Assembly: GCA_017561025.1 (NCBI GenBank) | Contig: JAFZDU010000111.1 | Span: forward strand, 1 to 35,741 | From: Bacteroidales bacterium | GTDB lineage: Bacteria; Bacteroidota; Bacteroidia; Bacteroidales; F082 | Length of the DNA: 35,741 nt | Reading direction: 5' to 3' | Shown here: one piece after another, positions 2,294 to 27,007 of the stretch | Layout of the letters: the number at the start of each line of letters is the position of its first letter | Numbering within the stretch: the first letter of the stretch is position 1 | Made by a program: the position numbers and the translations under genes | Notes under the pieces: model-generated | Databases searched by the model: none | What the model was told of the DNA's origin: nothing | What the model saw: only the letters and a program-made list of their open reading frames with translations

Positions 2294-2321
2294 GAGCTAT
2301 GAGCCTTGAGCTGTGAGCTCA
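2294..2321 (+). repeat. Heptad array, GAGCTNT family (4 units)
   Basis: Four successive 7-base units are seen: GAGCTAT, GAGCCTT, GAGCTGT, GAGCTCA. The array starts 8 bases after the mutB stop and ends just before the terminator. The unit contains an implicit TGA across its junction (TAT-GAG), so it has a stop in every frame when repeated. The same family recurs at 9971-10038. Confidence 0.8.
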
Positions 2322-2328
2322 AAATAAC

Positions 2329-2365
2329 AAAAGGCTAAAGGATTTCCTTTAGCCTTTTATTTTTA
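2329..2365 (+). terminator. Intrinsic terminator of mutAB
   Basis: A perfect 14-bp stem, AAAAGGCTAAAGGA (2329-2342) pairing with 2345-2358 across a 2-base loop, is followed by ATTTTTA. It lies 43 bases after the mutB stop and points in the direction of mutB transcription. Confidence 0.9.
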
Positions 2366-2370
2366 CTACA

Positions 2371-2390
2371 TCTGTCGCTCCTACGGAGCT
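2371..2390. repeat. Small palindrome, CTGTCG-stem-loop family
   Basis: TCTGTCG is followed by the 5-bp stem GCTCC-TAC-GGAGC (2377-2389). The same layout, CTGTCG running into a 5-3-5 stem-loop with another stem sequence, is present at 20579-20600. It is listed as a repeat because two unlinked intergenic copies share the lead-in and geometry. Its function is unknown. Confidence 0.4.
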
Positions 2391-2424
2391 GATTTGAGTA
2401 CACTTTCTTTCCTATTTTTTTTGA

Positions 2425-2460
2425 CAAAAAAACCTCAGAACTTTTTAATTCTGAGGTTTG
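2425..2460 (-). terminator. Terminator for the minus-strand gene at 2482-3879
   Basis: An 11-bp perfect stem, AAACCTCAGAA (2430-2440) pairing with TTCTGAGGTTT (2449-2459), has an 8-base loop. Read on the minus strand it is followed by a T-rich run (2420-2430). It lies 22 bases past the stop of the minus-strand gene. Confidence 0.85.
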
Positions 2461-2481
2461 ATTTTTTTGAATCTCTGAGTT

Positions 2482-3879
2482 TTATTTAACTACGAGTTTC
2501 TCAACTTTGTTGTTTATATTAATAATGTAAACTCCTTTGTTCAAGTCTTCAATATTGACTGTTGTGTTGTCAACGACATTGACTTCTTTCACGCAGCGGC
2601 CTGTCATGTCGAAGATTCTTGCCATTCCTTCTTCAGCACCCTCAATGATGATTGATGTTGTTGCAGGATTTGGATAGATGTTGAAGTTATTTTCAACGAT
2701 TTCTATTGTGCCTTCCAATGTTGTCTTGAACTCTATCTTTGTGATTTCGCCCCATTCGCCATTGACGTTCTTGCCTTGTGCGATAGCGAAATATTCTGTC
2801 TCTGCTGTCAAGTCAATCCATTCCCATTCATCAATGTCATAAAGAGCATATGGATCTTCGTGAAGAATCTGCATTGTTGAGTCAACGCCTATTGAATCAG
2901 CATAAAGTTTCTCGATGAGGATGTAATGATATTCTGATGTCTCTTCATTAGGTGTTGCTGTCACAAATACAGATGTCGTTGTTTTGACTTCCACTTTAAG
3001 ATCTATGATAGATACGCCTTCTCCGCCAAGTATAGCTGTTGACACCTTCTTGGTATCTAATTGTATTGTATTTCCTTCAGCATCTTTTGACAATGCATAG
3101 AGTGTGTATTCTGTGTTAGGGATAAGTTTATTCCATGTGCTTTTAGCAGTACCTGTCTTTTTGCCGCCCCATGATTCAATGAGCTGTTCCAAAGATGCAC
3201 CCATCCATGTAATCCATTGTTGCATTTCTGCTTCAGTGCTGAGCAAAATGATATATGATGCGCACTCTCCTACTGGAGTGAAAGTAGCTTCTACTGTTGT
3301 GTAAGTAACTTCGCCTACAGTTATATCAATTATAGGTTCTGCTGTTTCTGGTTCTTCACCGCATTCATATTCTTGGATGCCGAAGGCAGCGAGAGCTGTT
3401 ATCACATCTTCAGCTGTCTCTATTGAAGCGATGTCATCAAGAGCGATGCTTTTATCTGGAGCGATGAGCATTGTTGTTGGCATCTCGCATTGAAGTGCTT
3501 GCCAGATGTCCATAGCTGGACCTTCCATGCCATAACTATCGTCTGTGTTATGAATCATTGGAAATTCGATTCCATATTCTTCTACATATTTCTGTGTTGC
3601 GCTTGTTGTACCATTAGGAACGATGCCTACAAAGAACACATCGTGTTGGTTACATCCTAAATTCTTATAAGCCTCCACCAATGCTGGAGTGACTGTTGGA
3701 GTAGCGCCATTTGTTCTTGTGTTAACATGCAACAAGACATATTGACCGCCTTCGAGGATTTCGTATAAATGGATTTCGTCACCGAAATAATCTGTTGCTG
3801 TAAAGTCAGGTGCTGTAGTTTGTGCATTCAATCCAAGACCGAATATCACTGCGATTAGAATAGATAATAATTTCTTCAT
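2482..3879 (-). CDS. Secreted thioredoxin-fold protein without CXXC, with T9SS sorting domain
   Basis: 465 residues. A signal peptide ends near residue 20 (LGLNAQ). A TlpA/AhpC-like thioredoxin-fold domain covers about 24-165. Fn3-like regions covering about 180-380 follow, and a type A T9SS C-terminal sorting domain begins near 394 (NFNIYPNPA) and ends KLVVK. The two downstream paralogs have CVPC or CPPC at the redox site; here the aligned residues are N57-G58-A59-T60, so thiol redox activity is not expected. The following cis-proline site (MPTT) is kept. The region from about 290 to 400 is almost identical to the paralog at 5918-7318, suggesting recent duplication or gene conversion. Export through the Sec and type IX systems to the cell surface is inferred from the two signals; the ligand or partner is unknown. 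Confidence 0.85.
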   Translation of the reverse strand: MKKLLSILIAVIFGLGLNAQTTAPDFTATDYFGDEIHLYEILEGGQYVLLHVNTRTNGATPTVTPALVEAYKNLGCNQHDVFFVGIVPNGTTSATQKYVEEYGIEFPMIHNTDDSYGMEGPAMDIWQALQCEMPTTMLIAPDKSIALDDIASIETAEDVITALAAFGIQEYECGEEPETAEPIIDITVGEVTYTTVEATFTPVGECASYIILLSTEAEMQQWITWMGASLEQLIESWGGKKTGTAKSTWNKLIPNTEYTLYALSKDAEGNTIQLDTKKVSTAILGGEGVSIIDLKVEVKTTTSVFVTATPNEETSEYHYILIEKLYADSIGVDSTMQILHEDPYALYDIDEWEWIDLTAETEYFAIAQGKNVNGEWGEITKIEFKTTLEGTIEIVENNFNIYPNPATTSIIIEGAEEGMARIFDMTGRCVKEVNVVDNTTVNIEDLNKGVYIININNKVEKLVVK

Positions 3880-3932
3880 AGTTATAATTTTTAATTGTTA
3901 AAAGTTGAGCAAATATAACAATTATATCAAAT

Positions 3933-3971
3933 AAAAAAAGTAGCAATCAAAATTTGACTGCTACTTTTTTC
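3933..3971 (-). terminator. Hairpin terminator between two paralogs
   Basis: A-rich stem with core AAAAAAGTAGC (3934-3944) pairing with GCTACTTTTTT (3960-3970), extended inward with one mismatch. It ends 20 bases from the stop of the minus-strand gene at 3991-5763, and the A/T tracts on both flanks let it work on either strand. Its position upstream of the next minus-strand gene suggests the paralogs are separate transcription units. Confidence 0.8.
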
Positions 3972-3990
3972 AATATGATTTTTATCGATA

Positions 3991-5763: not shown

Positions 5764-5807
5764 TTTTTGGATGATTTTGATTTAAAATGTTAATTTAAAA
5801 TAATTTG

Positions 5808-5815
5808 CAAATTTA
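5808..5815 (-). promoter_or_regulatory. Candidate -7 box upstream of the CVPC paralog
   Basis: Read on the minus strand this is TAAATTTG, matching the Bacteroidota TAnnTTTG box. I found no clear TTTG -33 element at the usual distance, so this is a weak call based on one box in an AT-rich region. Confidence 0.35.
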
Positions 5816-5870
5816 AGATAAATTTAAAAGCCATAAGGCATTTTTTCTTAAAAAAGTGATAATTTGAGTT

Positions 5871-5926
5871 AAAAACGGAAAATTGAAAGCTGAAAATTAA
5901 AAATTAACTTTCAACTTTCAATTTCC
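5871..5926 (-). terminator. Terminator-like hairpin built from inverted TTGAAAG heptads
   Basis: The arm 5877-5900 (GGAAAATTGAAAGCTGAAAA...) pairs with 5904-5926 across a 3-base loop with few mismatches. Both arms are made of TTGAAAG-type 7-base units in inverted orientation. On the minus strand the stem is followed by GTTTTT (5876-5871), giving the shape of an intrinsic terminator. The TGA stop of the minus-strand gene (5918-5920) lies inside one arm. The same unit family is at 19197-19231. Confidence 0.7.
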
Positions 5927-7461: not shown

Positions 7462-7503
7462 ATGTGGGCAAAGTCTGTTGACAATTGTCCATTGTCTGTT
7501 GAC
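7462..7503 (-). repeat. Heptad array, GACAACA family, upstream of mvaA
   Basis: Read on the minus strand: GTCAACA, GACAATG, GACAATT, GTCAACA, GACTTTG, CCCACAT. Six 7-base units end in the GACTTTG + (T/C)CCACA block typical of this family. It ends 11 bases before the mvaA start codon. Confidence 0.8.
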
Positions 7504-7514: not shown

Positions 7515-8843
7515 ATGAAAAAAAGAGATATCATAAAGAAAGGTTTTTCAAAGCTTATCAAAGAAGATAAGTTGAAAGCCGTTGCAGAATTCGTGGAGAA
7601 TCCAAGTGAATTCATTGCTTTATTGAAGAGTTTCTGGCATCAGGACGAGAAGCGCCAGAAGCAGTTTGACGAGTTCAGCGAGAACACCATTTCCAACTAT
7701 CACATACCTTACGGCGTTTCACCTAACGTGATCATCAACGGCGAGTCATATATCGTCCCAATGGTAATCGAAGAGAGCTCTGTTGTTGCAGCAGCTTCTG
7801 CCGCAGCTAAATTCTGGGGCGAACGTGGCGGCTTCCACGCTGAGGTCATCGATGTGAAGAAAGTCGGTCAAGTGCATTTCTGCTGGAAAGGAAAGAAAGA
7901 GACATTGTTGAACCTCATGCCTGAGATCAAGGCCGAACTTCTCCGCAACACAGCTTCCATCACCGAAAAGATGGAGAAACGCGGCGGAGGCATCCTCGAC
8001 ATAGAACTCATTGACTTCACAGATAAAATCGATAACTATTATCAGCTTCGCGTCACCTTCAACACCTGCGACTCCATGGGCGCCAACTTCATCAACTCGA
8101 TATTGGAGAGCTTCGGCCGCAGTCTGCAGGACTTCTTCGCTCGTCAAGAGTCTTTAGATAAAGAAGAGAGAGAAGTCGAGATCGTGATGTGCATCTTGTC
8201 AAATTACACTCCAGAATGTAAGGTAAAGGTCTGGGTTGAATGTCACACCGACGAACTCAACGGCGTCTATGACCAACTCGACGGCAAGGCTTTCGCAGAG
8301 AAATTCAAGAAGGCAGTCGACATCGCAAACATAGATGAATATCGCGCCGCTACACATAACAAAGGTATTTATAACGGCATCGATGCCGTGGTCATTGCAA
8401 CAGGCAACGACTTCCGCGCCGTGGAAGCAGCCGGCCATTCTTACGCTTCAAGAAACGGTCATTACGGCAGCCTCTCATACGTCGAGATCAAAGACGACAT
8501 CTTCAGATTCACACTTGAAGTTCCATTGGCACTCGGCACAGTCGGCGGACTCACTTCATTACATCCTTTGGCAAATAAATCACTTGAGCTATTAGGCAAT
8601 CCTTCAGCGAAACAGCTGATGATGATAGCTGCAACAATGGGTCTCGCCAACAACTACGCCGCTGTCAAGTCATTGACAACAAAAGGAATCCAACAAGGAC
8701 ATATGAAGATGCACCTTGCTAACATCCTCAACCAATTCGGAGCGACAGAAGAAGAAAAAGGTTTGGCAGCAGAACATTTTAAAGATAAAACCGTTTCATA
8801 TTCTGAAGTCGAGAAATTCCTTCATACAATTCATTATGCATAA
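7515..8843 (+). CDS. mvaA: Hydroxymethylglutaryl-CoA reductase
   Basis: 442 residues, the size of class II (bacterial) HMG-CoA reductases; it reduces HMG-CoA to mevalonate in the cytoplasm. Catalytic signatures are visible: the glutamate in MVIEESSVVAAAS (E86-E87), the lysine in NKGIYNG (K283), the aspartate in GNDFRAVEA (D299) and the histidine in QGHMKMHL (H396). There are no membrane segments. It opens a four-gene mevalonate cluster. Its TAA stop lies inside a heptad array (TGCATAA unit), so the last residues HYA are partly repeat-encoded. No clear Shine-Dalgarno is visible, and a GACAACA-family array lies directly upstream. Cofactor preference (NADH or NADPH) cannot be read here. Confidence 0.95.
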   Translation: MKKRDIIKKGFSKLIKEDKLKAVAEFVENPSEFIALLKSFWHQDEKRQKQFDEFSENTISNYHIPYGVSPNVIINGESYIVPMVIEESSVVAAASAAAKFWGERGGFHAEVIDVKKVGQVHFCWKGKKETLLNLMPEIKAELLRNTASITEKMEKRGGGILDIELIDFTDKIDNYYQLRVTFNTCDSMGANFINSILESFGRSLQDFFARQESLDKEEREVEIVMCILSNYTPECKVKVWVECHTDELNGVYDQLDGKAFAEKFKKAVDIANIDEYRAATHNKGIYNGIDAVVIATGNDFRAVEAAGHSYASRNGHYGSLSYVEIKDDIFRFTLEVPLALGTVGGLTSLHPLANKSLELLGNPSAKQLMMIAATMGLANNYAAVKSLTTKGIQQGHMKMHLANILNQFGATEEEKGLAAEHFKDKTVSYSEVEKFLHTIHYA

Positions 8844-8892
8844 TGCAAAATGCATAATTATGAATTGTGAATTATGAATTATGAATTAAATT
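8837..8892 (+). repeat. Heptad array, TTATGAA/TGCATAA family, over the mvaA stop
   Basis: Eight contiguous 7-base units: TGCATAA, TGCAAAA, TGCATAA, TTATGAA, TTGTGAA, TTATGAA, TTATGAA, TTAAATT. The mvaA stop TAA (8841-8843) is the end of the first unit. The array fills the gap to the AAGGAG ribosome-binding site (8893-8898) of the next gene. When repeated, the unit contains a stop in each frame. Confidence 0.85.
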
Positions 8893-8900: not shown

Positions 8901-9965
8901 ATGCTTTATAAATCGAATGGTAAGTTTTTATTGACAGGAGAATATCTCGTGTTGAAAGGTGCGACAGCATTGGCTCTGCCTTTGAAAAAAGGACAAAGTC
9001 TGGAAGTTGAAAATCTGGATAGCAACGATGGTCTTATCCATTGGGATGCTTATTATAAGACAACAGACAACGGACAACAGACAACAGACATTGTCCACAG
9101 TTTAAGTTCAACAGACAACAGACAACAGACAACAGACATTGTCCACAGTTTAGTTCAAAGTTCAGAGTTCAAAGCTCAAAGTTCAGAGTTCAATAGCCAT
9201 AGCCCTTGGTTTTCTGCTGTTTTGGATAAAAATGATTTCAGCATTAAAAGCACCGATGACAAAGAAAAAGCAGAGCGGTTGTCAGATATTTTGACGAAAG
9301 CCAAGGCATTGAACGAAAACATTTTCACCGAGGCTCACGACTATAAATTCAGCACACACCTGGATTTCGACCCGCAATGGGGTTTGGGCAGCAGCTCCAC
9401 ATTAATTAATAATATAGCAGAATGGGCTGAGATAAATCCATATAAGCTTTTGGATCAGACATTCAAAGGATCAGGCTACGACATCGCATGCGCGAAATAC
9501 AACCATCCTATTTTCTTCGAGGTGATGAGAACAGCGCCTCAGGCCATAAGCCAAAAGATAGAAGCTGCCAACTTCGACCCTGTATTCAAAGACAACCTCT
9601 ATTTCGTGTATCTCGGGCATAAGCAAAACTCCGCAAGAGAGATAAAGGCATTCTTAAGTAAGGACAAGAATTACGACAGCGAGATAAAATCTATCAGCGA
9701 GATAAGCAGAGCCTTGCCTAACATACAAACACTACGCGACTTCTGTTATTTCATCAAGATACATGAAGAAATAACAGCGGCATGCCTAGAACAAAAACGA
9801 CTCAGAAAATATTTCAACGACTTCGAAGGAGAGATAAAGTCACTCGGAGCATGGGGCGGCGACTTCTTCCTGGTAGCTACCGAATGGGACGAAGAGAAAG
9901 TCAAGAAATATTTCGACAGCAAAGACCTTAATATTGTATTTAGATATCAAGATATTGTTTTATAA
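8901..9965 (+). CDS. GYDIA-family GHMP kinase, probable phosphomevalonate kinase
   Basis: 354 residues. GHMP features: N-terminal GKFLLTGEYLVL (8-19), the glycine/serine ATP loop GLGSSSTLI, the family-naming GSGYDIAC, and SLGAWGGDFFL near the C-terminus. The location among mvaA, mvaD and a canonical mevalonate kinase leaves phosphomevalonate kinase as the unfilled step, so that role is inferred. Residues of about 53-98 are encoded by two kinds of heptad repeat and give low-complexity sequence (TTDNGQQ.. then VQSSEFKAQ..); the frame is intact. The insert lies between the N-terminal strands and the ATP loop, probably a surface loop. The start at 8901 follows AAGGAG. Confidence 0.85.
   Translation: MLYKSNGKFLLTGEYLVLKGATALALPLKKGQSLEVENLDSNDGLIHWDAYYKTTDNGQQTTDIVHSLSSTDNRQQTTDIVHSLVQSSEFKAQSSEFNSHSPWFSAVLDKNDFSIKSTDDKEKAERLSDILTKAKALNENIFTEAHDYKFSTHLDFDPQWGLGSSSTLINNIAEWAEINPYKLLDQTFKGSGYDIACAKYNHPIFFEVMRTAPQAISQKIEAANFDPVFKDNLYFVYLGHKQNSAREIKAFLSKDKNYDSEIKSISEISRALPNIQTLRDFCYFIKIHEEITAACLEQKRLRKYFNDFEGEIKSLGAWGGDFFLVATEWDEEKVKKYFDSKDLNIVFRYQDIVL
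9059..9148 (+). repeat. Double heptad array, GACAACA family, inside the GYDIA kinase
   Basis: Two copies in tandem. Copy one: GACAACA, GACAACG, GACAACA, GACAACA, GACATTG, TCCACAG (9059-9100). Copy two: three GACAACA, GACATTG, TCCACAG (9114-9148), joined by a 13-base linker. Each ends in TTGTCCACA (9091-9099 and 9139-9147), a DnaA-box-like 9-mer. The coding strand has no stop in any frame. Confidence 0.9.
9153..9194 (+). repeat. Heptad array, GTTCAGA family, inside the GYDIA kinase
   Basis: Six units: GTTCAAA, GTTCAGA, GTTCAAA, GCTCAAA, GTTCAGA, GTTCAAT. It begins 4 bases after the preceding array and is translated as VQSSEFKAQSSEFN. The coding strand is stop-free in all frames, while the opposite strand would carry TGA. 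Confidence 0.85.
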
Positions 9966-9970
9966 GCATT

Positions 9971-10038
9971 GAGCTACGAGCCATGAGCTGTGAGCAAAAC
10001 CTCAACACAGCTCATACTCAAAGCTCACAACTCATAGC
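9971..10038. repeat. Inverted heptad arrays, GAGCTNT family, between the GYDIA kinase and mvaD
   Basis: GAGCTAC, GAGCCAT, GAGCTGT, GAGCAAA (9971-9998) are followed by complementary units around CTCA at 10011, 10017, 10024 and 10031, ending CATAGC. The two halves can fold into an imperfect hairpin. It starts 5 bases after the kinase stop, fills the whole gap, and leaves no Shine-Dalgarno for mvaD. Confidence 0.75.
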
Positions 10039-10041: not shown

Positions 10042-11046
10042 ATGAATAACAATCAGATCATAAAACGCAGTCCTTCTAACATCGCAATCGTGAAATATTG
10101 GGGCAAACATGGAAATCAGCTTCCTAACAACCCTTCAATAAGCTTCACCTTGAGCAATTGTTTCACAGAGACAAAAGTGACATATAACGAAAACGGCACC
10201 GATTCCACCAATATGGAATTCTACTTTGAAGGCAAAGAAAACCCAGCCTTTAAAAGTAAGATCGAGAAATATCTGCTTGAAAACGAACAGCATTTCTCAT
10301 TCCTCAAAGGACTCGACCTTAAGATTGAGAGCTACAACTCTTTCCCTCATTCTTCAGGCATTGCCTCTAGCGCTTCTTCTATGAGCGCGCTGATCATGTG
10401 CTTGCTGGCGATAAAATATCAAGACGAGCCTATCGACTTGCAAGAAGCTTCGTTTCTGTCGAGACTGGCATCTGGAAGCGCCGCACGTTCAGTCTATCCG
10501 TTGATGACAGTATGGGGCGAGACACCATCATTGCCAAGCAGCTCTGACGAATTCGCCATCCCTATCGGAGATATGCTGCATCCTGTCTTCAAGACTTATC
10601 ACGACACCATCTTGATAGTAAGTTCAAAAGAAAAAAGCGTCTCCAGCCGCGCAGGACACTCCTTGATGAACGAGCATCCTATGGCTGAAATGCGTTACGC
10701 CACAGCGAGAAAAAATACTGAAGATTTATTAACAATATTAAAACAAGGTGATGTGGAAGGTTTCATAAGAATCGCTGAAGCGGAAGCAAATCAGCTCCAC
10801 GACCTTATGGCGACTTCAACACCATCATACACTCTCAAAGAACCTAATACTATCAATATTATCAACAAGATTTTAGAATTCAGAAAAGACACCGGTCTCC
10901 CTGTATGTTACACCTTAGACGCAGGTCCTAACGTACATCTTCTCTACCCTGACTCATGTTCTGAGCAAGTACATGACTTCATCGAAAAAGAGTTGAAAGA
11001 CTATTGCTTTGAAAACAAATACATCGAAGATAAGGTTTTGAGATGA
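10042..11046 (+). CDS. mvaD: Diphosphomevalonate decarboxylase
   Basis: 334 residues, normal for the family; it catalyses ATP-dependent decarboxylation of mevalonate diphosphate to isopentenyl diphosphate. Signatures: SPSNIAIVKYWGK (10-22) at the N-terminus, the ATP loop FPHSSGIASSASS (101-113), SRLASGSAARSVYP, and the catalytic aspartate in YTLDAGPNVHLLY (D293). It overlaps the mevalonate kinase start by four bases (ATGA), indicating translational coupling. Unlike its neighbours in the cluster it has no heptad insert. The only feature between it and the upstream kinase is an inverted heptad array. Confidence 0.96.
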   Translation: MNNNQIIKRSPSNIAIVKYWGKHGNQLPNNPSISFTLSNCFTETKVTYNENGTDSTNMEFYFEGKENPAFKSKIEKYLLENEQHFSFLKGLDLKIESYNSFPHSSGIASSASSMSALIMCLLAIKYQDEPIDLQEASFLSRLASGSAARSVYPLMTVWGETPSLPSSSDEFAIPIGDMLHPVFKTYHDTILIVSSKEKSVSSRAGHSLMNEHPMAEMRYATARKNTEDLLTILKQGDVEGFIRIAEAEANQLHDLMATSTPSYTLKEPNTINIINKILEFRKDTGLPVCYTLDAGPNVHLLYPDSCSEQVHDFIEKELKDYCFENKYIEDKVLR

Positions 11047-11957
11047 AAAGGTATAACGGCAAACTCATTTTATTCGGAGAATATTCTATGATATTCGGTT
11101 CGGAGGCATTGTTAACTCCTTATTATTCAGCATTTGGAGAATGGAGTTCTGTCACAAACCGTCCATCAGACAGAGGTTTCGAGTCGAATGCAAGCATACG
11201 CAAGTTCTATGATTATCTCTGCAATAATGATGGATTCAAAATCCTCGATTTAAGGAGATTCGGCATGGAACTCGACGCTGGATTATTCTTCGATTCCAAT
11301 ATTCCCCTCGGATATGGTGTCGGCAGCTCTGGTTCTTTGGTAGCTGCTATTTACGACCGTTATAAGCTAATAGAAATTAACGATATTCCTAAATTGAAAG
11401 ACTTTCTTGCAAAGATGGAGAGTTTCTTTCATGGCAGCAGTTCCGGTATGGACCCTTTGCAATGTTATCTGGGAAAACCTTTTATCTTAAGACAACAGAT
11501 AACGGACAACGGTCAACAGACTTCCTTCACAATGTTGGAGGATGATTTTATGTCGGAAGATATCCATATCTTCTTGATTGACACAAAAATCAAAAGTCCG
11601 ACTGCTCCTTTGGTCACACGTTTCAAGGAACTTAGAGAAGATGCCACTTACCTAAATAAGTTTGATAACGAATATATTCCTACTGTAAGTAATTGTATAA
11701 AATCCTTAATCGAGAAGAAGGATAATGAGTTTTACAATTATTTGTCACAGCTTTCAAAATTACAGATTGAGTTGTTGTCGCACACCATCCCAGAAGAGAC
11801 AAGAGAATATTTCTTAACAGATATTAACAAAGAAGGTTTCCAAGTGAAACTATGTGGTGCAGGCGGCGGCGGTTTCCTTTTAGGATTTAGTAATGACATT
11901 CAAAAAACCAATGACTTTTTTGAAAAAAATAATAAAAATATAATCTGGGTCAAATAA
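11043..11957 (+). CDS. Mevalonate kinase (GHMP family)
   Basis: 304 residues. GHMP motifs: GKLILFGEYSMI (5-16), ATP loop GYGVGSSGSL (90-99), FHGSSSGMDPL and the C-terminal KLCGAGGGGF (269-278). Together with its neighbours it supplies phosphorylation of mevalonate, the step after HMG-CoA reductase. The assignment between mevalonate kinase and phosphomevalonate kinase for the two GHMP proteins is inferred: this one has the canonical GHMP motif 3 of mevalonate kinases. A GACAACA-family insert encodes RQQITDNGQQTSF near residues 150-161 without frame disruption. The start overlaps the mvaD stop (ATGA). Confidence 0.85.
   Translation: MKRYNGKLILFGEYSMIFGSEALLTPYYSAFGEWSSVTNRPSDRGFESNASIRKFYDYLCNNDGFKILDLRRFGMELDAGLFFDSNIPLGYGVGSSGSLVAAIYDRYKLIEINDIPKLKDFLAKMESFFHGSSSGMDPLQCYLGKPFILRQQITDNGQQTSFTMLEDDFMSEDIHIFLIDTKIKSPTAPLVTRFKELREDATYLNKFDNEYIPTVSNCIKSLIEKKDNEFYNYLSQLSKLQIELLSHTIPEETREYFLTDINKEGFQVKLCGAGGGGFLLGFSNDIQKTNDFFEKNNKNIIWVK
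11491..11525 (+). repeat. Heptad array, GACAACA family, inside mevalonate kinase
   Basis: Five units: GACAACA, GATAACG, GACAACG, GTCAACA, GACTTCC. It is translated in frame as part of RQQITDNGQQTSF. It lacks a perfect TCCACAG end, and its unit degeneracy suggests an older insertion. Confidence 0.8.
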
Positions 11958-17433: not shown

Positions 17434-19206
17434 ATGATTAAACACTACAACATACCTATCTTTTTGCCTGAATTGGCCTGTCCTTATCGTTGCGTTTACT
17501 GCAATCAGTTTAGCATTACAGGATTGAACGACATTGTCAAAGCCGATGATGTCAAGACTATTATTGACAGTCACTTAGCCTCATTCAAGGAAGAGAAGCG
17601 TTTTGTTGAAGTGGCATTTTTCGGAGGTAATTTCACAGGCCTTCCGCTCCAGATGCAGAACGATTATCTGGATGCCGTGCAACCTTATCTCGACAAAGGA
17701 CTTATCGACGGCATACGCTGCAGCACTCGCCCCGACTACATCACGCTCCAACGCGTCCAAGAAATAAAACGCCTCGGAATGCGTAACATCGAACTCGGAG
17801 CGCAAAGCACCAACGACGAAATCCTGAAACAATGCAAACGCGGACATACTTACAACGACATTGTTGAAGCTTCGCAAACAATCCTTTCTGAAGGAATCAC
17901 ATTAGGATTACAGATGATGATTGGATTGCCGTCGAGCAGCGAGGAACACGACTTGCAGACAGCAAAAGACATAGTAAATCTCGGCGCAGAAGAGACTCGC
18001 ATATATCCTTGCATAGTAGTAAAAGACACCGAGTTAGCAGCGATGTATAAATCAGGAGAATATGAAGCGCTCTCTATTGAAGAAGCAGTCAAACGTTCTT
18101 CAAAACTTTATTCTTATTTCACAGAAAATAACGTCAAGGTCTTAAGAATCGGACTTCACACCTCCGACGAATTAGATAATGAAGCTTACGTAGCAGGACC
18201 TTATCATAAGAACTTCGCCGAGATGGTCTTCAGCAATATCTGGAAAGAGAAACTGAGATGCTTAGATCCTGAGACTCTGAGAAGTAAAGACATTATCATC
18301 AATGTTCCTGAGTCGCAGATAAATCACGCCATAGGATGGAAAGGAGAGAATAAGAAATTATTATTGGAAAGATTTGATAATGTTGTTTTTAAATCTTTTG
18401 TCAACGGACAACGGTCAACAGACAACAGACTTTATCCACAGAACGATTTTGATTTCACTATTACTTCAAAAGAAGAGTTGCCAACTATAATCGCTGACGG
18501 ACGAATGCCGGAGGAAGCGAAGAAGAATCTCAAAAAACTAGGCGATGTCTTATTCTTAAATCCGACTGATATAACATATAAATCAATATCTGCTCATCCT
18601 GACATTTTCTTCTTCCAAGGAAAAGACGGATTAGTCTATGCGCCCAACGCACCGAAGAGAATCGTCAAGGAACTAAAGAAACGAAAGATAAAACTGACAG
18701 AAGGCAAGAAAGAAGTCGGAAGAAAATATCCAGACACAGTGCCTTATAATGCAGTCGGCATCGGCGACACTTTAATACATAATCTCAAACACACTGACCC
18801 TACGATTTTGTCACTATATGAAAACCATATACAAGTAAATCAAGGATATACGAGATGTAATCTTGTAGCGTTGAAGGAGGGTGTTTTTATTACGTCGATT
18901 CCGGACAACAGACAACAGACAACAGACAACAGACTTTGTCCATCAGAATCTCACGTAGAGACGTACGGACGTACGTCTATCCTCTACATTGATCCTAAAC
19001 AGATAAAATTAGAAGGTCACGACCATGGATTTTTCCCTGGATGTTGCGGCGTCTGGAAGAACAATCTGATAGTCTGCGGCAACACTAAACATCTTAAAGA
19101 AAAAGCAGAACTCGACAAATTCCTCAAAGACAACAACTTCAACCTCATCGAATTATACGATGGAGAACTGGTTGATGTTGGAAGCATTTTGATAATTGAA
19201 AACTGA
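17434..19206 (+). CDS. Radical SAM protein fused to a DUF6873-like domain
   Basis: 590 residues. The N-terminal half is a radical SAM domain with C16-x3-C20-x2-C23 (CPYRCVYC), FFGGNFTGL and QMMIGLP, closest in feel to the Elp3/HemN-like group; it should bind a 4Fe-4S cluster and cleave S-adenosylmethionine. From about residue 350 a second domain resembles DUF6873, a guanidino-group-modifying-like fold of unknown activity: NQGYTRCNLVAL, IKLEGHDHGFFPGCCG and a C-terminal DGELVDVGSILI. Heptad repeats encode the linker between domains (about 323-336) and a loop in the second domain (about 491-505), which also carries a GTAGAGACG element. The stop TGA lies in a TGAAAGT heptad. The fusion is seen directly; the substrate is unknown. 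Confidence 0.82.
   Translation: MIKHYNIPIFLPELACPYRCVYCNQFSITGLNDIVKADDVKTIIDSHLASFKEEKRFVEVAFFGGNFTGLPLQMQNDYLDAVQPYLDKGLIDGIRCSTRPDYITLQRVQEIKRLGMRNIELGAQSTNDEILKQCKRGHTYNDIVEASQTILSEGITLGLQMMIGLPSSSEEHDLQTAKDIVNLGAEETRIYPCIVVKDTELAAMYKSGEYEALSIEEAVKRSSKLYSYFTENNVKVLRIGLHTSDELDNEAYVAGPYHKNFAEMVFSNIWKEKLRCLDPETLRSKDIIINVPESQINHAIGWKGENKKLLLERFDNVVFKSFVNGQRSTDNRLYPQNDFDFTITSKEELPTIIADGRMPEEAKKNLKKLGDVLFLNPTDITYKSISAHPDIFFFQGKDGLVYAPNAPKRIVKELKKRKIKLTEGKKEVGRKYPDTVPYNAVGIGDTLIHNLKHTDPTILSLYENHIQVNQGYTRCNLVALKEGVFITSIPDNRQQTTDNRLCPSESHVETYGRTSILYIDPKQIKLEGHDHGFFPGCCGVWKNNLIVCGNTKHLKEKAELDKFLKDNNFNLIELYDGELVDVGSILIIEN
18400..18441 (+). repeat. Heptad array, GACAACA family, at the radical SAM domain junction
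   Basis: Six units: GTCAACG, GACAACG, GTCAACA, GACAACA, GACTTTA, TCCACAG. It is translated as VNGQRSTDNRLYPQ. It contains TTATCCACA (18432-18440), an exact match to the standard DnaA box. It lies between the radical SAM and DUF6873-like parts. Confidence 0.88.
18904..18946 (+). repeat. Heptad array, GACAACA family, in the DUF6873-like part
   Basis: Four perfect GACAACA units, then GACTTTG and TCCATCAG. The end differs from TCCACAG by an inserted T. It is translated as DNRQQTTDNRLCPS. It is followed 8 bases later by a GTAGAGACG element. Confidence 0.88.
18955..18987 (+). repeat. GTAGAGACG palindromic element, copy 2
   Basis: GTAGAGACGTAC (18955-18966), GGAC, then GTACGTCT-ATCCT-CTAC (18971-18987): an inverted repeat whose right arm has five extra bases. 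It lies in frame inside the radical SAM/DUF6873 gene and encodes ETYGRTSILY. Confidence 0.7.
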
Positions 19207-19231
19207 AAGTTGAAAGTTGAAAGTTGGCAAC
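19197..19231 (+). repeat. Heptad array, TTGAAAG family, over the radical SAM gene stop
   Basis: TGAAAAC, TGAAAGT, TGAAAGT, TGAAAGT, TGGCAAC. The gene's TGA (19204-19206) is the start of the second unit. The array fills most of the 29-base gap to the convergent ATPase gene, and no other terminator is visible there. Confidence 0.85.
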
Positions 19232-20452: not shown

Positions 20453-20506
20453 ATTGCAATCTCCATCTTACATTTTTTTAAAAAATTGAGACTTGCATCT
20501 TGCAAT
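20453..20506. repeat. Degenerate inverted heptads around TTGCAAG
   Basis: ATTGCAATCTCCATCTTACAT (20453-20473) and ATTGAGA, CTTGCAT, CTTGCAAT (20485-20506) share inverted 7-base words (TTGCAAG/CTTGCAA). It resembles a decayed version of the TTGAAAG hairpin at 5871-5926. It lies in the 315-base gap between the ATPase and U32 genes. Confidence 0.4.
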
Positions 20507-20600: not shown

Positions 20601-20628
20601 AATACGTATCTACTAATTTTAAATTCTT

Positions 20629-20660
20629 GGCGACTTGGTGTCTCGGTGACTCGGTGACTT
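20629..20660 (+). repeat. Octad array, GGTGACTC family
   Basis: Four 8-base units: GGCGACTT, GGTGTCTC, GGTGACTC, GGTGACTT. Intergenic, 10 bases before a heptad array. When repeated, the unit contains TGA in each frame. Confidence 0.8.
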
Positions 20661-20670
20661 TAAAAAACTT

Positions 20671-20698
20671 TTGTCTTTTGCCGTTTGTCCGTTGCCTT
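20671..20698 (+). repeat. Heptad array, TTGTCCG variant
   Basis: Four units: TTGTCTT, TTGCCGT, TTGTCCG, TTGCCTT. Read in reverse these are a variant of the GACAACA family (CGGACAA). It is directly upstream of the TATCTTTG box of the U32 gene and supplies the candidate -33 TTTG. Confidence 0.7.
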
Positions 20699-20710
20699 TT
20701 CTTATCTTTG
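20677..20710 (+). promoter_or_regulatory. Promoter of the U32 gene, -33 box inside the heptad array
   Basis: TTTG at 20677-20680 lies in the heptad array and TATCTTTG is at 20703-20710, a 22-base spacing, slightly long for TTTG/TAnnTTTG. Another TTTG at 20684-20687 is too close. The ATG is at 20727. Confidence 0.45.
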
Positions 20711-20726: not shown

Positions 20727-22631
20727 ATGAAAAAAATAGAACTTTTATCGCCGGCGAAGAATCTGGAAGTTGGCATCGCTGCCATCAACCATGGCGCTGA
20801 CGCAGTATATATAGGTGGACCTAGTTTTGGTGCACGTGAGAAGGTGGGCAACAGCATCGAAGACATAGAGGCTTTGTGCAGACACGCTGCTCTCTTCGAT
20901 GCAAAGGTTTACGTCACAATGAATACTCTTTTGTACGACAGTGAGTTAGAAGACGCTCGCAAGCTCGCTTACGACTGCTGGAATGCTGGTGTCGATGCGC
21001 TCATCGTACAGGACATGGCGTTATTGAACATGGACATGCCTCCTATCGCATTGCACGCTTCAACACAATGTCATAACATTGAAGCAGAGAAAGTCAAGTT
21101 CCTCGAAGACGTCGGTTTCTCGCAAGTGGTGCTCGCACGAGAACTCAGCATCGAGCAGATAAAAGACATCAGATCAAAAACCACAGTTCCTTTAGAATAT
21201 TTCGTTCACGGCGCGTTATGCGTTTCATATAGCGGTCAGTGTTATTTAAGCCACGTCATCGGAGGCCGTTCTGCCAACAGAGGCGCATGCGCTCAGCCTT
21301 GCCGTCTCAGCTGGAACCTCGAGAATGCAGAAGGCAAACGCCTGATAAGCAACAGACATCTTCTCTCATTAAGAGATTTGAACAACAGCAAAAACATAGA
21401 AGAACTCATCGATGCCGGCATCACTTCTTTCAAAATCGAAGGCAGGTTGAAAGACATCGACTATGTCAAAAATGTCACTGCTTATTACAGAAATAAAATT
21501 GACGAAGTCATTGCAAAACGCGACGACCTTTGCAGAAGCTCTCGCGGAGAAAGCAGCCCTTCGTTCTACCCTGCTCCAGAGAAGTCATTCTCAAGAGGCT
21601 TCACCGATTACTTCATCCACGGCCGTCAGAAATATATCGACGCTCCTTATTCCCCAAAATCAATGGGAGAATATCTCGGCACCATCGAGAAAATCAAAAA
21701 CAAATCCATCACCATCAGAACAGGAAAAGAACTTCATAACGGCGACGGACTTTGTTTCTTGGACAGAGAAAACAATCTCTTAGGTTTCAATGTTAATGCT
21801 GTTGCTGAAAACAAAACAAGGAGTCTTTCACAGACCATCACAAGCAACACCGACATCTCGATGGCGACAAGATTCAAGATCGAAGGAAGCAAGATCTTCA
21901 GAAACCACGACAATGTCTGGGAAAAAGAACTTGAGAAATCCAATGGCAACAGAAAGCAGAAGATCAGCTTGAGATTCACTGATACAGAAGACGGATTTGC
22001 TTTGTCAGCGAAATTATATAATAAAGATTCAGAATACGTTACAACAAATATCTCAATAGATAAAGAAGTCGCGATAAACACAGAAAAGGCTCTTGACAAC
22101 ATTAAAAGCAAGCTGTCACAATGGGGCGATACTGAGTTCTCTGTTGAGGAGATTGACGTTGAATTCGGACAACAGACAACAGACAACGGACAACAGACTT
22201 TGTCCACAGCATATTTCATCAGAGCGTCGGTTTTAGGTGAGATGAAGAAAGATTTAGTGGAGAAATTAAAATCATATCTCATTGAGAAACATCGTAATGA
22301 GAGAGATTGTAGAGACGTCACTCCTGTGGCGTCTAACGTGATTTATCCTAAAGAAAGTTTAACATATTTAGGCAACGTCATCAATGAAAAGTCGAGAGAG
22401 TTTTACAAGAGACACGGTGTTGAAATAATCGAAGACGGATTGGAGAAATTACGTTCTGGCGACGAGCTCGTTGTGATGACGACAAAGCACTGTGTTCGTT
22501 ATGCCAACAATATATGTAGCAAGGAGATAGGCAAACCTGCGACATCATTATATCTTGCTAATGACAAAGGCAGATTCCGCTTAGATTTCGATTGCAGAAA
22601 TTGTTGCATGAAAGTGATAAAAGAAAAATAA
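20727..22631 (+). CDS. U32 family peptidase / tRNA hydroxylase-like protein, long form
   Basis: 634 residues from the ATG at 20727; an upstream TTG at 20685 would place the start inside a heptad array and upstream of the promoter box. The U32 core is recognisable: ELLSPAKNLEVGIAAI at the N-terminus, GADAVYIGG, LHASTQ, the cysteine-rich YFVHGALCVSYSGQCYLS and NRGACAQPCR, and KIEGRLKD. The C-terminal DUF3656-like extension ends with DCRNCCMKV. The family includes PrtC-type proteins and TrhP/RlhA, which hydroxylate tRNA or rRNA using an Fe-S cluster; a tRNA-modifying role is the better guess. Heptad (codons 481-494) and GTAGAGACG (about 528-536) inserts both lie in the C-terminal part, in frame. 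Confidence 0.88.
   Translation: MKKIELLSPAKNLEVGIAAINHGADAVYIGGPSFGAREKVGNSIEDIEALCRHAALFDAKVYVTMNTLLYDSELEDARKLAYDCWNAGVDALIVQDMALLNMDMPPIALHASTQCHNIEAEKVKFLEDVGFSQVVLARELSIEQIKDIRSKTTVPLEYFVHGALCVSYSGQCYLSHVIGGRSANRGACAQPCRLSWNLENAEGKRLISNRHLLSLRDLNNSKNIEELIDAGITSFKIEGRLKDIDYVKNVTAYYRNKIDEVIAKRDDLCRSSRGESSPSFYPAPEKSFSRGFTDYFIHGRQKYIDAPYSPKSMGEYLGTIEKIKNKSITIRTGKELHNGDGLCFLDRENNLLGFNVNAVAENKTRSLSQTITSNTDISMATRFKIEGSKIFRNHDNVWEKELEKSNGNRKQKISLRFTDTEDGFALSAKLYNKDSEYVTTNISIDKEVAINTEKALDNIKSKLSQWGDTEFSVEEIDVEFGQQTTDNGQQTLSTAYFIRASVLGEMKKDLVEKLKSYLIEKHRNERDCRDVTPVASNVIYPKESLTYLGNVINEKSREFYKRHGVEIIEDGLEKLRSGDELVVMTTKHCVRYANNICSKEIGKPATSLYLANDKGRFRLDFDCRNCCMKVIKEK
22168..22209 (+). repeat. Heptad array, GACAACA family, inside the U32 gene
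   Basis: Six units: GACAACA, GACAACA, GACAACG, GACAACA, GACTTTG, TCCACAG, with TTGTCCACA at 22200-22208. It is translated as GQQTTDNGQQTLSTA. Confidence 0.9.
22310..22334 (+). repeat. GTAGAGACG palindromic element, copy 3
   Basis: GTAGAGACGTCAC, TCCT, GTGGCGTC. It matches copy 1 (7405-7428, minus strand) except for one extra C. It is in frame in the U32 gene and encodes part of CRDVTPVAS. Confidence 0.75.
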
Positions 22632-22638
22632 AAATCAT

Positions 22639-22646
22639 TATTTTTG
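22639..22646 (+). promoter_or_regulatory. Candidate -7 box for aspS
   Basis: TATTTTTG matches TAnnTTTG, 38-45 bases before the aspS ATG and just after the U32 stop. No -33 TTTG at the right place, so aspS may instead be read through from the U32 gene. Confidence 0.35.
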
Positions 22647-22683
22647 TAGGTCAATTTAGGTAAAAAACAAAACAGATATAACT

Positions 22684-24447: not shown

Positions 24448-24455
24448 ATATTCAC

Positions 24456-24483
24456 GTAGAGACGCACACTTGTGCGTCTCTAC
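24456..24483. repeat. GTAGAGACG palindromic element, copy 4 (perfect)
   Basis: GTAGAGACGCACA (24456-24468), CT, then the exact complement (24471-24483): a perfect 13-bp inverted repeat. It lies between aspS and pfkA, 8 bases after the aspS stop. There is no T tract directly after it, so it is only a weak terminator candidate. Confidence 0.85.
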
Positions 24484-24503
24484 ATTTATAATAACGAACC
24501 AAC

Positions 24504-25598
24504 ATGAAACGTGTATTAGTATTAACAGGCGGAGGCGACTGTCCAGGTCTGAACGCCGTGATAAGAGCCATCGTGAAGAGAGCCTCGCAGGAGAAAGACT
24601 GGGAAGTGCTCGGCAGCATACAAGCATTTAACGGAGTATTGTGGGAACCAAGTGAAATTGTAAGACTCACTCCTGAAAGCGTGAGAGGAATACATTTCAG
24701 AGGCGGAACCATTTTAGAGACAACAAACAAGGGCGGCCCGTTCTCATGGCCTGTCAAGAACAACGACGGCACATGGACCACGGTTGACCGTTCTGACGAG
24801 ATGATAAGAAAACTCCAATATATGGGCATCGACTGTGTCATCAACATCGGCGGCGATGGTTCACAGAGAATATCAAAGAAATTATTCGATAAAGGATTAA
24901 ACATAATAGGCGTTCCTAAGACTATCGACAACGACTTATCCATGACCGACAGCACCTTCGGTTTCCAGACTGCTGTCGAAATCGCCACTGAATCAGTCGA
25001 CAAACTCGTCACGACAGCGGCAAGTCATAACAGAGTCTTTGTGTTAGAAGTGATGGGTCGCGACGCAGGATGGATCGCCTTGAATGCAGCAGTGGCGGGC
25101 GGAGCGGAAGTATGCCTCCTCCCTGAATTCCCTTACGACATAGAGAAAGTAAAAGAAAAACTGGAAAGCAGATTCGTCAACGACAGAGGATTCGCTGTTG
25201 TAGTAATATCAGAAGGTGCGAAACCAAAAGACGGACAGCAGGTCTTTGAGGTAAGCAAAGAAGTAGGTTACGAAAACGTGAAACTCGGCGGCATCGGACA
25301 GAAGTTCATCGAACAGATGAAGGCGGCAGGTTTCAAACACGACATGCGCGAGACTACATTAGGTCACCTTCAAAGAGGCGGTGTGCCTGTAGCTTACGAC
25401 AGAGTGCTCGCTGCACAGTTCGGAGTGAAGGCTTTCGAAATGGTCCTCAACCAGGAATATGGCAAGATGGTAGCATATCGCCATCCAAATATAATCTCAG
25501 TACCATTGGAAGACGCAGTGGCAAAGATGAACTTCGTCACAATGGACAACGACCTTGTAAAGACCGCAATGGGACTCGGAATCTCGTTAGGAATTTGA
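24504..25598 (+). CDS. pfkA: 6-phosphofructokinase, group III-like
   Basis: 364 residues. It phosphorylates fructose 6-phosphate in glycolysis. Motifs: LTGGGDCPGLNAVIR near the start, GGDGS (116-120), VPKTIDND (137-144), EVMGRDAGWIAL and TLGHLQRGG. The two residues that separate phosphoryl donors are mixed: glycine at the GGDGS position (G119), as in ATP enzymes, and lysine before TIDND (K139), as in PPi enzymes and group III PFKs. ATP use is predicted, because PPi enzymes usually carry Asp at the first position. It follows aspS by 56 bases with a palindrome between, and is convergent with rodA across an octad array. Confidence 0.9.
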   Translation: MKRVLVLTGGGDCPGLNAVIRAIVKRASQEKDWEVLGSIQAFNGVLWEPSEIVRLTPESVRGIHFRGGTILETTNKGGPFSWPVKNNDGTWTTVDRSDEMIRKLQYMGIDCVINIGGDGSQRISKKLFDKGLNIIGVPKTIDNDLSMTDSTFGFQTAVEIATESVDKLVTTAASHNRVFVLEVMGRDAGWIALNAAVAGGAEVCLLPEFPYDIEKVKEKLESRFVNDRGFAVVVISEGAKPKDGQQVFEVSKEVGYENVKLGGIGQKFIEQMKAAGFKHDMRETTLGHLQRGGVPVAYDRVLAAQFGVKAFEMVLNQEYGKMVAYRHPNIISVPLEDAVAKMNFVTMDNDLVKTAMGLGISLGI

Positions 25599-25605
25599 TA
25601 AGAAT

Positions 25606-25692
25606 CTCAGAAATTCAGAACCTCAAAACTTCAGAAATAAAAGATTCTAAAATTCTGAGTTTCTGAGTTTCTGAGTTTCTGAGTTTTTGAGT
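25606..25692. repeat. Inverted octad arrays, TTCTGAGT family, between pfkA and rodA
   Basis: Left arm (25606-25637): CTCAGAAA, TTCAGAAC, CTCAAAAC, TTCAGAAA. Right arm (25653-25692): four TTCTGAGT and one TTTTGAGT. The arms are complementary and can form a hairpin of about 32 bp. The array occupies nearly all of the 98 bases between the two convergent stop codons, so it probably acts as a bidirectional terminator. Confidence 0.88.
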
Positions 25693-25696
25693 TTCA

Positions 25697-26956
25697 TTAA
25701 AGGATATTCATTCTATTAGCGTCTTGTTTCAAAAAGACGAAGAACATCAGACTGAACATAAGAAGGCTGGAGCCTCCATAGCTTAGAAATGGCAATGGGA
25801 TTCCGATAACAGGAAGCAATCCTATCGTCATTCCTATATTTACCATCAGATGGAAGAATATTATCGAAGCTATAGCATAACCGTATATTCTGCTGAATGC
25901 AGAGCGCTGCCTTTCCGCCAGAAGTATTATCCTTACCAATAATGCAAGATAAAGAGAAAGCAAGACAAAAGAGCCAACAAAACCAAACTCCTCCCCTATA
26001 GTACAGAAGATAAAGTCGGTATGCTGCTCCGGAACAAAGTTGTATTTCGTCATGGTACCCTGCAGATAACCCTTACCCGAGAACCCTCCAGAACCGATAG
26101 CTATCTTTGACTGATGCAGGTTATATCCCACACCATAAATATCCTTTTCTACACCTAATATAATATTGATACGAGTCCTCTGGTGCTGTTTCAAGACCTT
26201 ATAAAAGAAAAAGTCGACAGAGAATACAAACATAGCCGATACAATGAACACAGCTATCAAGCCCCATATATTCCTCCTAGTTTTTTCTATAATGAAGACA
26301 ATCACTGCAAACACCACAGCGAGACCGATAAGCACATACCACTTGGAAAAATATAGCGTCAGAAGGAACAACACTATAGCCACAAGACCTATTACCAGTA
26401 TCTTGCCCGACATTCCTTCTCTATAAAAGACGAGTATGAAGACAAGAAACACGAGAGAAGAGCCAGCGTCGCCTTGCATCAGGACAAGCATCATCGGAAA
26501 AAGAACAAGTCCGTATGCTATAGCCTGCGTCTTCAGTTTTGTGAAATCCGTGTTGATACCGCCAAGATAATGCGCCACCGCCAATGCCGTTCCGAACTTA
26601 GCGAACTCGGAAGGCTGGAACGAGAAACTGCCGAACTGTATCCACGATTTGGAACCGGCAATAGTACTTCCTCCCACCAAGACATATAAAAGGAAAAGTA
26701 TTGACAATCCATATATTATATATGCAAAGGCATTGAAAAACTTGGCATCTATCAACATTATTATCAAGCCTAAGAATATGCTAACGCCTGCAAAAAGAAA
26801 CTGTTTGCCATAGTGCTGCGACATATCGAAGATACTAGGATGCATCTCATTGAAAGCAGCAGCATAGATAGCCGACACACCAATGGAAACGAGTGCCACA
26901 TAAATTGCAAGCAGCCACCAGTCAATCTTACCTACTATATTATTTCTTGCTGTCAT
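25697..26956 (-). CDS. rodA: Peptidoglycan glycosyltransferase RodA
   Basis: 419 residues from the ATG at 26956; an upstream in-frame TTG at 26998 lies inside a heptad array and is rejected. SEDS family polymerase with about ten membrane segments. Signatures: KSWIQFGSFSFQPSEFAK, HQSKIAIGSGGFSGKGYLQGT, EQHTDFIFCTIGEEFGF and the terminal GIPLPFLSYGGSSLL. It works with PBP2 (mrdA, directly upstream) in cell elongation. The 64-base gap to mrdA contains a GACAACA array, and co-transcription is likely. Confidence 0.95.
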   Translation of the reverse strand: MTARNNIVGKIDWWLLAIYVALVSIGVSAIYAAAFNEMHPSIFDMSQHYGKQFLFAGVSIFLGLIIMLIDAKFFNAFAYIIYGLSILFLLYVLVGGSTIAGSKSWIQFGSFSFQPSEFAKFGTALAVAHYLGGINTDFTKLKTQAIAYGLVLFPMMLVLMQGDAGSSLVFLVFILVFYREGMSGKILVIGLVAIVLFLLTLYFSKWYVLIGLAVVFAVIVFIIEKTRRNIWGLIAVFIVSAMFVFSVDFFFYKVLKQHQRTRINIILGVEKDIYGVGYNLHQSKIAIGSGGFSGKGYLQGTMTKYNFVPEQHTDFIFCTIGEEFGFVGSFVLLSLYLALLVRIILLAERQRSAFSRIYGYAIASIIFFHLMVNIGMTIGLLPVIGIPLPFLSYGGSSLLMFSLMFFVFLKQDANRMNIL

Positions 26957-26972
26957 GATTTTGCCTTTGGCA

Positions 26973-27007
26973 GACAACAGACCACGGTCAACAGACAACA
27001 GTCTTCG
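26973..27007 (+). repeat. Heptad array, GACAACA family, between mrdA and rodA
   Basis: Five units: GACAACA, GACCACG, GTCAACA, GACAACA, GTCTTCG. Intergenic within the mrdA-rodA pair; its orientation is opposite to the two genes. It extends a false upstream reading frame for rodA. Confidence 0.8.

Follow-up and report, generated by a model that had tools for sequence, protein, structure and literature searches.

Arrays of seven-base tandem units are already known in bacteria, and STRR is the name that we take to apply to the heptanucleotide repeats of cyanobacteria. We describe here arrays of 7- and 8-bp units in a 35,741-nt stretch of DNA from a Bacteroidales bacterium of lineage F082 (contig JAFZDU010000111.1 of assembly GCA_017561025.1; this whole stretch is hereafter the window) and in its host genome, G000 (2,793,328 bp in 126 contigs, 84% complete). 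They make up several families of short dispersed repeats, typically with about 4.5 units, and, in a tentative reading that falls somewhat short of probable, arrays would be rewritten within their slots, and seeded at new sites, by copying that takes other arrays of the genome as its template. A pitch of 7 is in itself a general bacterial tendency for long simple repeats (PMC4679880; what is said of this and the other cited papers refers to the parts of them consulted): among long repeats, heptanucleotides ranked first in abundance in most of the genomes that Mrazek surveyed in 2007, and heptamer repeats have been reported in Beggiatoaceae, Cyanobacteria and five Bacteroidetes (PMC4679880), as well as in Xanthomonas and in Calothrix, the latter with three heptanucleotides (PMC4692102). 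A subset of repeats of 6–9 bp is highly enriched in prokaryotic phyla (PMC12699852), and the mechanism behind bacterial heptamer arrays has not been established (PMC4679880, PMC4692102). The initial annotation of the window, made from its sequence, had suggested that an equivalent with multiple unit families in a Bacteroidales genome seems little described; Bacteroidetes with heptamer repeats are already on record (PMC4679880), and what appears in no description that we found, in a literature search covering mostly titles and the beginnings of abstracts, is slots with exchanged words in Bacteroidales.

The closest described systems resemble the G000 arrays in part. Cyanobacterial STRR share the seven-base tandem units, the several word families and the many loci, and the G000 arrays, being dispersed 7-bp tandem units in excess of chance, belong with these heptanucleotide long simple sequence repeats (LSSR/STRR); the host phylum differs, and the G000 arrays form a narrow class of about 4.5 units, have pitches of both 7 and 8, lie in open reading frames (ORFs) in a third of cases and exchange their words, traits that cyanobacterial arrays may share. 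The TAACTGA direct repeats of Beggiatoaceae, Cyanobacteria and the five Bacteroidetes are likewise heptamer arrays, patchy in Bacteroidetes and absent from the shorter intergenic regions of the close relatives compared, but they consist of one word and lie in their main genome mainly just upstream of start codons, and related heptamers are seldom repeated there (PMC4679880), whereas dozens of words coexist in G000. The Xanthomonas GGGAATC and Nostoc GGGGA(T/C)T heptamers also vary in length and sequence between relatives, four units being commonest in Xanthomonas, but these words are G-rich and quadruplex-forming (PMC4692102), unlike the commonest G000 words, GACAACA and GGAATTA, which have no GGG run. 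Borg tandem repeats comprise many different units, lie in ORFs in about half of cases and evolve fast, but those in ORFs are perfect copies with unit lengths all divisible by three (PMC9879509); G000 units measure 7 and 8 bp in imperfect copies, and the 49 period-7/8 arrays within ORFs are thus not of the Borg type. REPINs and RAYTs are, like the arrays, short dispersed non-autonomous repeats (PMC3116915), and REP-like hairpins lie near G000 arrays, but the arrays themselves are not palindromic hairpin doublets flanking a RAYT gene, and another repeat family stands beside the Y1 transposase gene of G000.

Pitch, length and words across the host genome

Arrays were counted in 41 stretches of G000 totalling 594,710 bp (21% of the genome, window included); the first 20 (281,978 bp) come from contigs 1–20, and five of the 20 later ones were chosen on contigs already known to bear arrays. 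In the window, Tandem Repeats Finder (TRF) lists period-7 and period-8 arrays through 2.3–27 kb, and our own scorer, which treats periods 4–30 alike, finds the arrays as well. The control for the period spectrum consisted of three Markov versions of the stretches from contigs 1–20. With period multiples folded into 7 or 8, there are 145 arrays, 96 of period 7 and 49 of period 8, the next short period being 9 with 5 arrays. Before folding, the 41 stretches give 79, 41 and 5 arrays at periods 7, 8 and 9, and the first 20 stretches 30, 11 and 3, with none at periods 4, 5, 6 or 10; the Markov versions of these 20 contain no array at period 7 or 8. The initial annotation had proposed such a scan, with a spectrum lacking a peak at 7–8 as the result that would speak against it, and the peak is present in the 41 stretches. 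From at most 56 arrays in the first 281,978 bp and the 145 in 594,710 bp, the total for the whole of G000 is estimated at 550–680.

At either pitch the commonest copy number is 4.5 units (45 of 96 period-7 and 15 of 49 period-8 arrays), and 52% of 87 period-7 arrays measure 29–33 bp, as against at most 18% in five geometric slippage models passed through the same detector. This bears on an alternative credited to Mrazek 2007, in which each array arises independently by slippage, with a polymerase preference for 7–8 nt, and is then homogenised locally, an account that we hold to be possible but rather doubtful. Array lengths are not geometric, and the narrow 29–33 bp class weighs against slippage as the mechanism, although not against membership of the arrays in the known repeat class. 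The 145 arrays comprise 59 canonical word forms, among which the GWCAACR forms (AACAGAC, AACAGTC, AACGGAC, AACGGTC) supply 33 arrays and AATTAGG 13.

Two candidate properties of the units were tried and set aside. Doubling of a 14- or 16-bp unit is not indicated, identity over 95 G000 arrays being lower at lag 2 (0.862) than at lag 1 (0.892), a comparison in which selection at lag 1 favours lag 1; self-pairing words are not indicated either, 4-bp palindromes being rarer than in shuffled words (0.27 vs 0.44).

The window's arrays and their orthologous sites

Eighteen coordinates of the window had been listed as arrays in the initial annotation. When the best period of 5–12 in a 60-bp window at each was compared with 5,000 Markov-3 windows, 11 gave P<0.01 (5877, 8837, 9059, 9114, 9153, 11491, 18400, 18904, 19197, 20629 and 22168), three P=0.03 (2294, 20671 and 25606) and four P=0.105 (7462, 9971, 20453 and 26973). 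The arrays of the first group are strong and those of the second marginal, although the second arm of the 25606 array (25653-25694) is very strong, with a score of 31. No coordinate of the last group is significant by itself: 9971 and 26973 resemble degenerate arrays built from known words, the signal at 7462 is weak, and at 20453 an array is unconvincing. The period, described as nearly always 7 and twice 8, is indeed 7 or 8 at all 18 coordinates (8 at two of them). Scores of at least 14 are reached in the window at period 7 (7 arrays), period 8 (2), the multiples 14, 16, 21 and 24 and once at period 18, the Markov-3 mean at period 7 being 0.03 per window. Arrays inside conserved enzyme genes, inverted pairs and the narrow length distribution are additions to the earlier description. 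The features are as follows.

2294..2319, between convergent genes: degenerate GAGCTNT array, period 7 (P=0.03), with terminator-like hairpins, seen by eye, after it
5878..5925, between two minus-strand ORFs and touching the 3' end of the second: GAAAATT and AACTTTC arrays, period 7, as an inverted pair
8828..8888, end of the HMG-CoA reductase gene: composite array, AATGCAT then AATTATG, period 7
9058..9193, plus strand, in frame in the GYDIA GHMP kinase gene (8901-9965): two GACAACR arrays with tail TTGTCCACAG and one AGTTCAA array, period 7
9971..10038, intergenic: degenerate GAGCTNT array with an inverted copy (P=0.105)
11491..11521, plus strand, inside the second GHMP kinase gene (11043-11957): GACAACG array, period 7
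18400..18430, plus strand, inside the radical SAM/DUF6873 gene (17434-19206): GWCAACR array, period 7
18904..18934, plus strand, inside the same gene: perfect GACAACA array, period 7
18955..18978: REP-like hairpin GTAGAGACGTACGGACGTACGTCT, linked to the 18904 array through the tail TTTGTCCATCAGAATCTCAC
19189..19226, spanning the stop codon of the radical SAM/DUF6873 gene: GTTGAAA array, period 7
20626..20659, intergenic: GACTCGGT array, period 8
20668..20700, immediately upstream of TATCTTTGC, which is presumably a -7 box of the Bacteroidetes type: CTTTTGY/CGTTGCC array, period 7 (P=0.03)
22168..22198, plus strand, inside a peptidase U32-family gene: GACAACR array, period 7, with tail TTTGTCCACAG
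25601..25695, filling the gap between the convergent PFK and RodA genes: inverted pair of AGAANCTC-type arrays, period 8, terminator-like
26971..27001, overlapping the 5' end of the rodA ORF: degenerate CAGACAA array, period 7 (P=0.105)

A TACGGC repeat of 6/18 bp in an ORF at 32625-32692 is an ordinary codon-multiple repeat.

Intervals between alignable flanks, both flanks being required, were compared at ten of these sites in nine near relatives (loci with 74–87% protein identity at the radical SAM gene) and 18 far ones (53–58%). Of 68 near intervals, 30 carry a period-7 array, 13 a period-8 array, one a period-10 array and 24 no array. Arrays are found in none of the 43 far-relative intervals, and identical arrays at orthologous loci of distant relatives, which the initial annotation had named as a sign of ordinary conserved sequence, did not turn up. 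Random intervals of the near loci hold a period-7/8 array in 3.6% of 1,360, a generous contrast in that these intervals are mostly coding; the ten sites had been picked for their window arrays, so that the counts measure recurrence in relatives and not in general. Both limits tell against the reading of slots rewritten by copying.

The words at these sites are frequently not the same. At site 22168 all eight near relatives with both flanks have arrays; in half of them the pitch is 7 (GACAACR), and in the other four it is 8, with the words AAGACAAC, AAGACTAC, CAACAAGA and AGTCGCCA. Site 18400 holds AAAGGCT (in two near relatives), AAAGACA, GACAAAA, GTCAACA, ACAACAC or the 8-mer GAGTCACC, and is array-free in two; at site 19189, AATTAGG, TTAGGAG or CAATTGA stands instead of GTTGAAA in three of the four near relatives with both flanks, the remaining one being array-free. 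The GYDIA kinase site at 9058..9193 is array-free in L039 and L040. As to phase-variable contingency repeats, in which changes of copy number turn a gene on and off, the observation to hand is that L045, a near-identical contig, does not differ from the window in its arrays at the sites that it covers.

G000 is a fragmented metagenome bin in which two related strains or species seem to be mixed: the radical SAM gene and the GHMP kinase gene are both present on C117 and, in diverged form, on C82. Over 14,506 bp C82 matches a contig of the water-buffalo-colon bin RGIG7428 without a difference, and the window shares 99.93% identity with a second RGIG7428 contig over 16,381 bp. An origin of the arrays as assembly artefacts, which a bin of this kind might invite, is nevertheless extremely improbable, as arrays at orthologous sites occur in other bins, including SIG104-107 of another naming series, and as arrays lie in frame inside open ORFs.

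The nine near loci (181,502 bp) hold 36 period-7 and 17 period-8 arrays in all, and the 18 far loci (358,763 bp) three and one. Among four other genomes of the genus, three have 3, 3 and 6 period-7 arrays, of 24–43 bp and with other words, in 65–100 kb, and the fourth has none in 97 kb; a pitch shared within the genus while the words differ is a point in favour of slippage. Other genera of the family have five period-7 arrays in 18 stretches (251,596 bp), and other families two in 22 stretches (342,269 bp). The pattern GWCAACRx2.9 matches 119 times in G000 (reversed control 12) and is found in 5 of 295 other genomes of the phylum and in none of 59 other genomes of the family; for GACAACA the reversed-pattern control is uninformative because the word reads almost alike backwards.

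In IMG/VR, two exact patterns matched 23 and 18 stretches, and with nine near-duplicates of these 41 dropped 283,888 bp were left, on contigs that may be viral or host and span 27–68% G+C. Words unlike the searched ones form 37 period-7, 9 period-8 and 13 period-9 arrays there, and 12 of the 37 measure 31–33 bp; in these stretches (L215-L255) one heptamer array is often accompanied by others with unrelated words. A lexicon common to G000 and IMG/VR beyond the searched words is weak (1 exact match vs 0.58 expected; 12 of 27 within one change vs 7.5, p = 0.03). It is conceivable, if unlikely, that a general bacterial process writes patches of about 31–36 nt (4.5 units of 7 or 8 nt) and rewrites old ones by drawing on words held in common; as the pitch, roughly the length mode and some of the degenerate words recur in contigs of such varied G+C, a process of this kind would not be confined to one lineage.

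Arrays in genes, at promoters and beside hairpins

ORFs of at least 150 aa, which make up 87% of the sample, contain 49 of the 145 arrays (39 of period 7 and 10 of period 8, these being the only periods entered); 11 arrays lie at an ORF edge and 85 are intergenic. Host genes in the window encode the GYDIA GHMP kinase, the second GHMP kinase, the radical SAM protein and the U32 peptidase, and host genes elsewhere PrmC-like and other methyltransferases, GH20, GH97, YjeF/Carb_kinase and a UvrD/AAA-type helicase. Across nine relatives the GHMP kinase ranges from 305 to 354 aa, varying mostly in one loop, and QQTTDN-type peptides occupy a second loop of it in some relatives. A perfect 7- or 8-bp array gives the same peptide in every frame, so that a stop-free word is a frame-neutral insert, and words that are stop-free on both strands are commoner in ORFs (16 of 49) than between genes (8 of 85; p = 0.0018).

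The same coding filter is visible in a type IX secretion system (T9SS) sorting domain (CTD), of which 13 copies carry an in-frame GGARTKA-type array (L074, L088, L091, L149-L154, L161, L162, L168): as read from the sequences, a variant unit, TGAG or, in L091, AGTGTGG, stands where TTAG would be an in-frame stop. GGAGTTA-type units fill the whole array of the L091 copy, and the other 12 copies have GGAATTA/GGAATGA; the L091 array is therefore a candidate whole-array word switch, and we count it for rewriting. Two weak-TPR genes (L097:7368-9506 and L091:3139-5025) have several arrays in both orientations, together with REP elements, in their first third, and these array-bearing genes encode peptides such as VPEPVEGT and ASTSSA.

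Between genes, we take TATCTTTG to be a -7 box and GTAG to be the signature of REP elements. Arrays lie within 25 bp of 11 of 60 intergenic TATCTTTG boxes, against 4.5% expected (p = 6e-5), and an A-tract, an array and the -7 box follow one another in a layout that recurs at several of them. Thirteen arrays immediately precede a TATCTTTG box, and many of these have an A-tract on their other flank (L071, L072, L078, L079, L080, L088, L091, L096, L099, L101, L103); to judge by their sequences, arrays so placed may mark a promoter family. Several 8-mer AGAANCTC arrays, the pair between PFK and RodA among them, are terminator-like in that two inverted copies adjoin an A/T run; convergent gaps are little richer in arrays (1.54 per kb) than tandem (1.34) and divergent (1.05) ones. 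One could thus envision selection for function, as binding site, promoter spacer or terminator, with a DNA-binding protein or RNA polymerase setting pitch and copy number, and both the promoter layout and the terminator-like pairs would fit it. As an explanation of the class it is quite improbable: such a role is unlikely for the 49 of 145 arrays that lie in ORFs, and 59 canonical words fit no single binding protein.

REP-like sequences also lie near arrays more often than the 4.5% expected, with 6 of 27 intergenic CTGAGCYTGTCGAAG sites (p = 0.001) and 5 of 34 intergenic RTAGAGACG sites (p = 0.017) within 25 bp of one, and a composite of array, tail and hairpin much like that at 18904..18978 stands at a different gene site in L046. 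G000 has a single Y1_Tnp (RAYT-like) gene, at C42:20647-20988 (within stretch L168, G000:C42:19800-23600), and arrays of several families lie about 0.4–0.5 kb from it on one side. These observations would agree with arrays that are the cargo or the ends of small transposable elements moved by the Y1/RAYT transposase with REP-like hairpins, which we nonetheless consider unlikely. No target duplication was seen, and Y1_Tnp is present in 32 of the 40 genomes of the relatives search, among which array load was measured for G000 alone. Copies of an element roughly 100 bp long (CAGTTCCCAGGCAGGCGGTGAAG...GTGCCGAAGGTACGACAG) lie to either side of the gene and may be its own REP family, and the RAYT was set aside as mover of the arrays, the gene being present but adjoined by a different repeat family.

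Copying and slippage as possible sources of the arrays

If arrays are copied, the order of variant units within them might be shared between loci, and the tests of this gave mixed results. The AATTAGG set had been partly targeted (19 stretches from pattern matches) and was therefore repeated as a whole-genome census; of 36 GGARTTA windows, we used 15 (12 arrays) without a TGAG unit and set aside 21 with one, many of which are copies of one protein domain. Seven of the 12 four-unit GGARTTA arrays are one and the same 26-mer, in which the second unit is the variant one, and their flanks are dissimilar (permutation p = 0.040), which counts against independent slippage. The GWCAACR test, with 7 of 48 matches left out for want of a fetched flank, covered 38 arrays in 20 flank clusters, and 13 of 20 flank-distinct arrays open with GTC, whereas the counts at the units that follow are 4, 8 and 4 (p = 0.008). 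An array with its tail, 42 bp in all, recurs without change between window 22168 and L105, in different flanks. Adjacent units differ slightly more than expected (425 vs 409, p = 0.076; in the other phase 412 vs 394, p = 0.041), so that like units are non-adjacent, contrary to local slippage. That one word family supplies about a fifth of arrays (33 of 145), though some in paralogous genes, likewise speaks against independent slippage.

The copying reading nevertheless has a good deal against it, in addition to the limits on the orthologous-site counts. Identical-code array pairs are no more frequent than in column shuffles (p = 0.22, 0.15), a result that slippage accommodates; the interior units of GWCAACR arrays have no shared order (p = 0.26; 0.20 and 0.42), nor do the seven 8-mer AGACWACA arrays (p = 0.27); the GWCAACR family owes part of its size to paralogous TPR-type genes; and IMG/VR arrays reach 94 bp, as slippage would give. 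Four pairs of relatives at 82–86% identity show five gaps of at least 12 bp with good flanks. Two of them are unit-sized and lie in or beside arrays (21 bp, or three 7-mers, and 24 bp, or three 8-mers), which slippage fits equally well; one is a REP-like insertion; and none of the five, in four pairs at 82% identity or above, is the clean arrival of a whole new array. This shifts the odds slightly towards slippage, leaving copying a tentative choice and slippage a possible if doubtful one. A shift of word along one array (L104 7833-7890) is a further point for slippage. The evidence for block copying is moderate, and the tests of it are mixed.

Under the copying reading, which we still prefer, enzyme loops, gene ends, promoter-upstream regions and terminators would act as permissive slots, at which template switching or ectopic gene conversion at replication forks would use other arrays of the same genome as template. 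Re-annealing on an array would have to respect the 7- or 8-bp register, which would preserve the pitch while the word changes, and purifying selection would sort the products, stop-free words persisting in reading frames and stop-containing words between genes. The pitch, the size class, the coding filter and the return of arrays at orthologous sites under other words are observed; we infer both the copying step and its enzymes, and this gap where the enzyme should stand weighs against the reading. A separate explanation would have the repeats written by a telomerase-like reverse transcriptase such as DRT10, which makes tandem-repeat cDNA from a short RNA template, of 9 nt in one system and of other lengths in others (PMC12632851). 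That such an enzyme writes the arrays is very far-fetched: G000, at 84% completeness, has no RVT_1 match, RVT_1 occurs in just 21 of 40 genomes of the relatives search, and dozens of words would require dozens of templates. The initial annotation had taken the shared pitch as a sign of one mechanism that makes or copies arrays of fixed pitch. The pitch is indeed shared genome-wide, and the lengths and part of the unit-order tests are unlike independent slippage; one dedicated mechanism does not follow from these results.

An array-rich clade that often keeps its slots while swapping the words in them is a natural experiment, because slippage, conversion and transposition predict different outcomes there. 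For the enzymes whose genes bear arrays, frame-neutral array inserts suggest a route to new loops.

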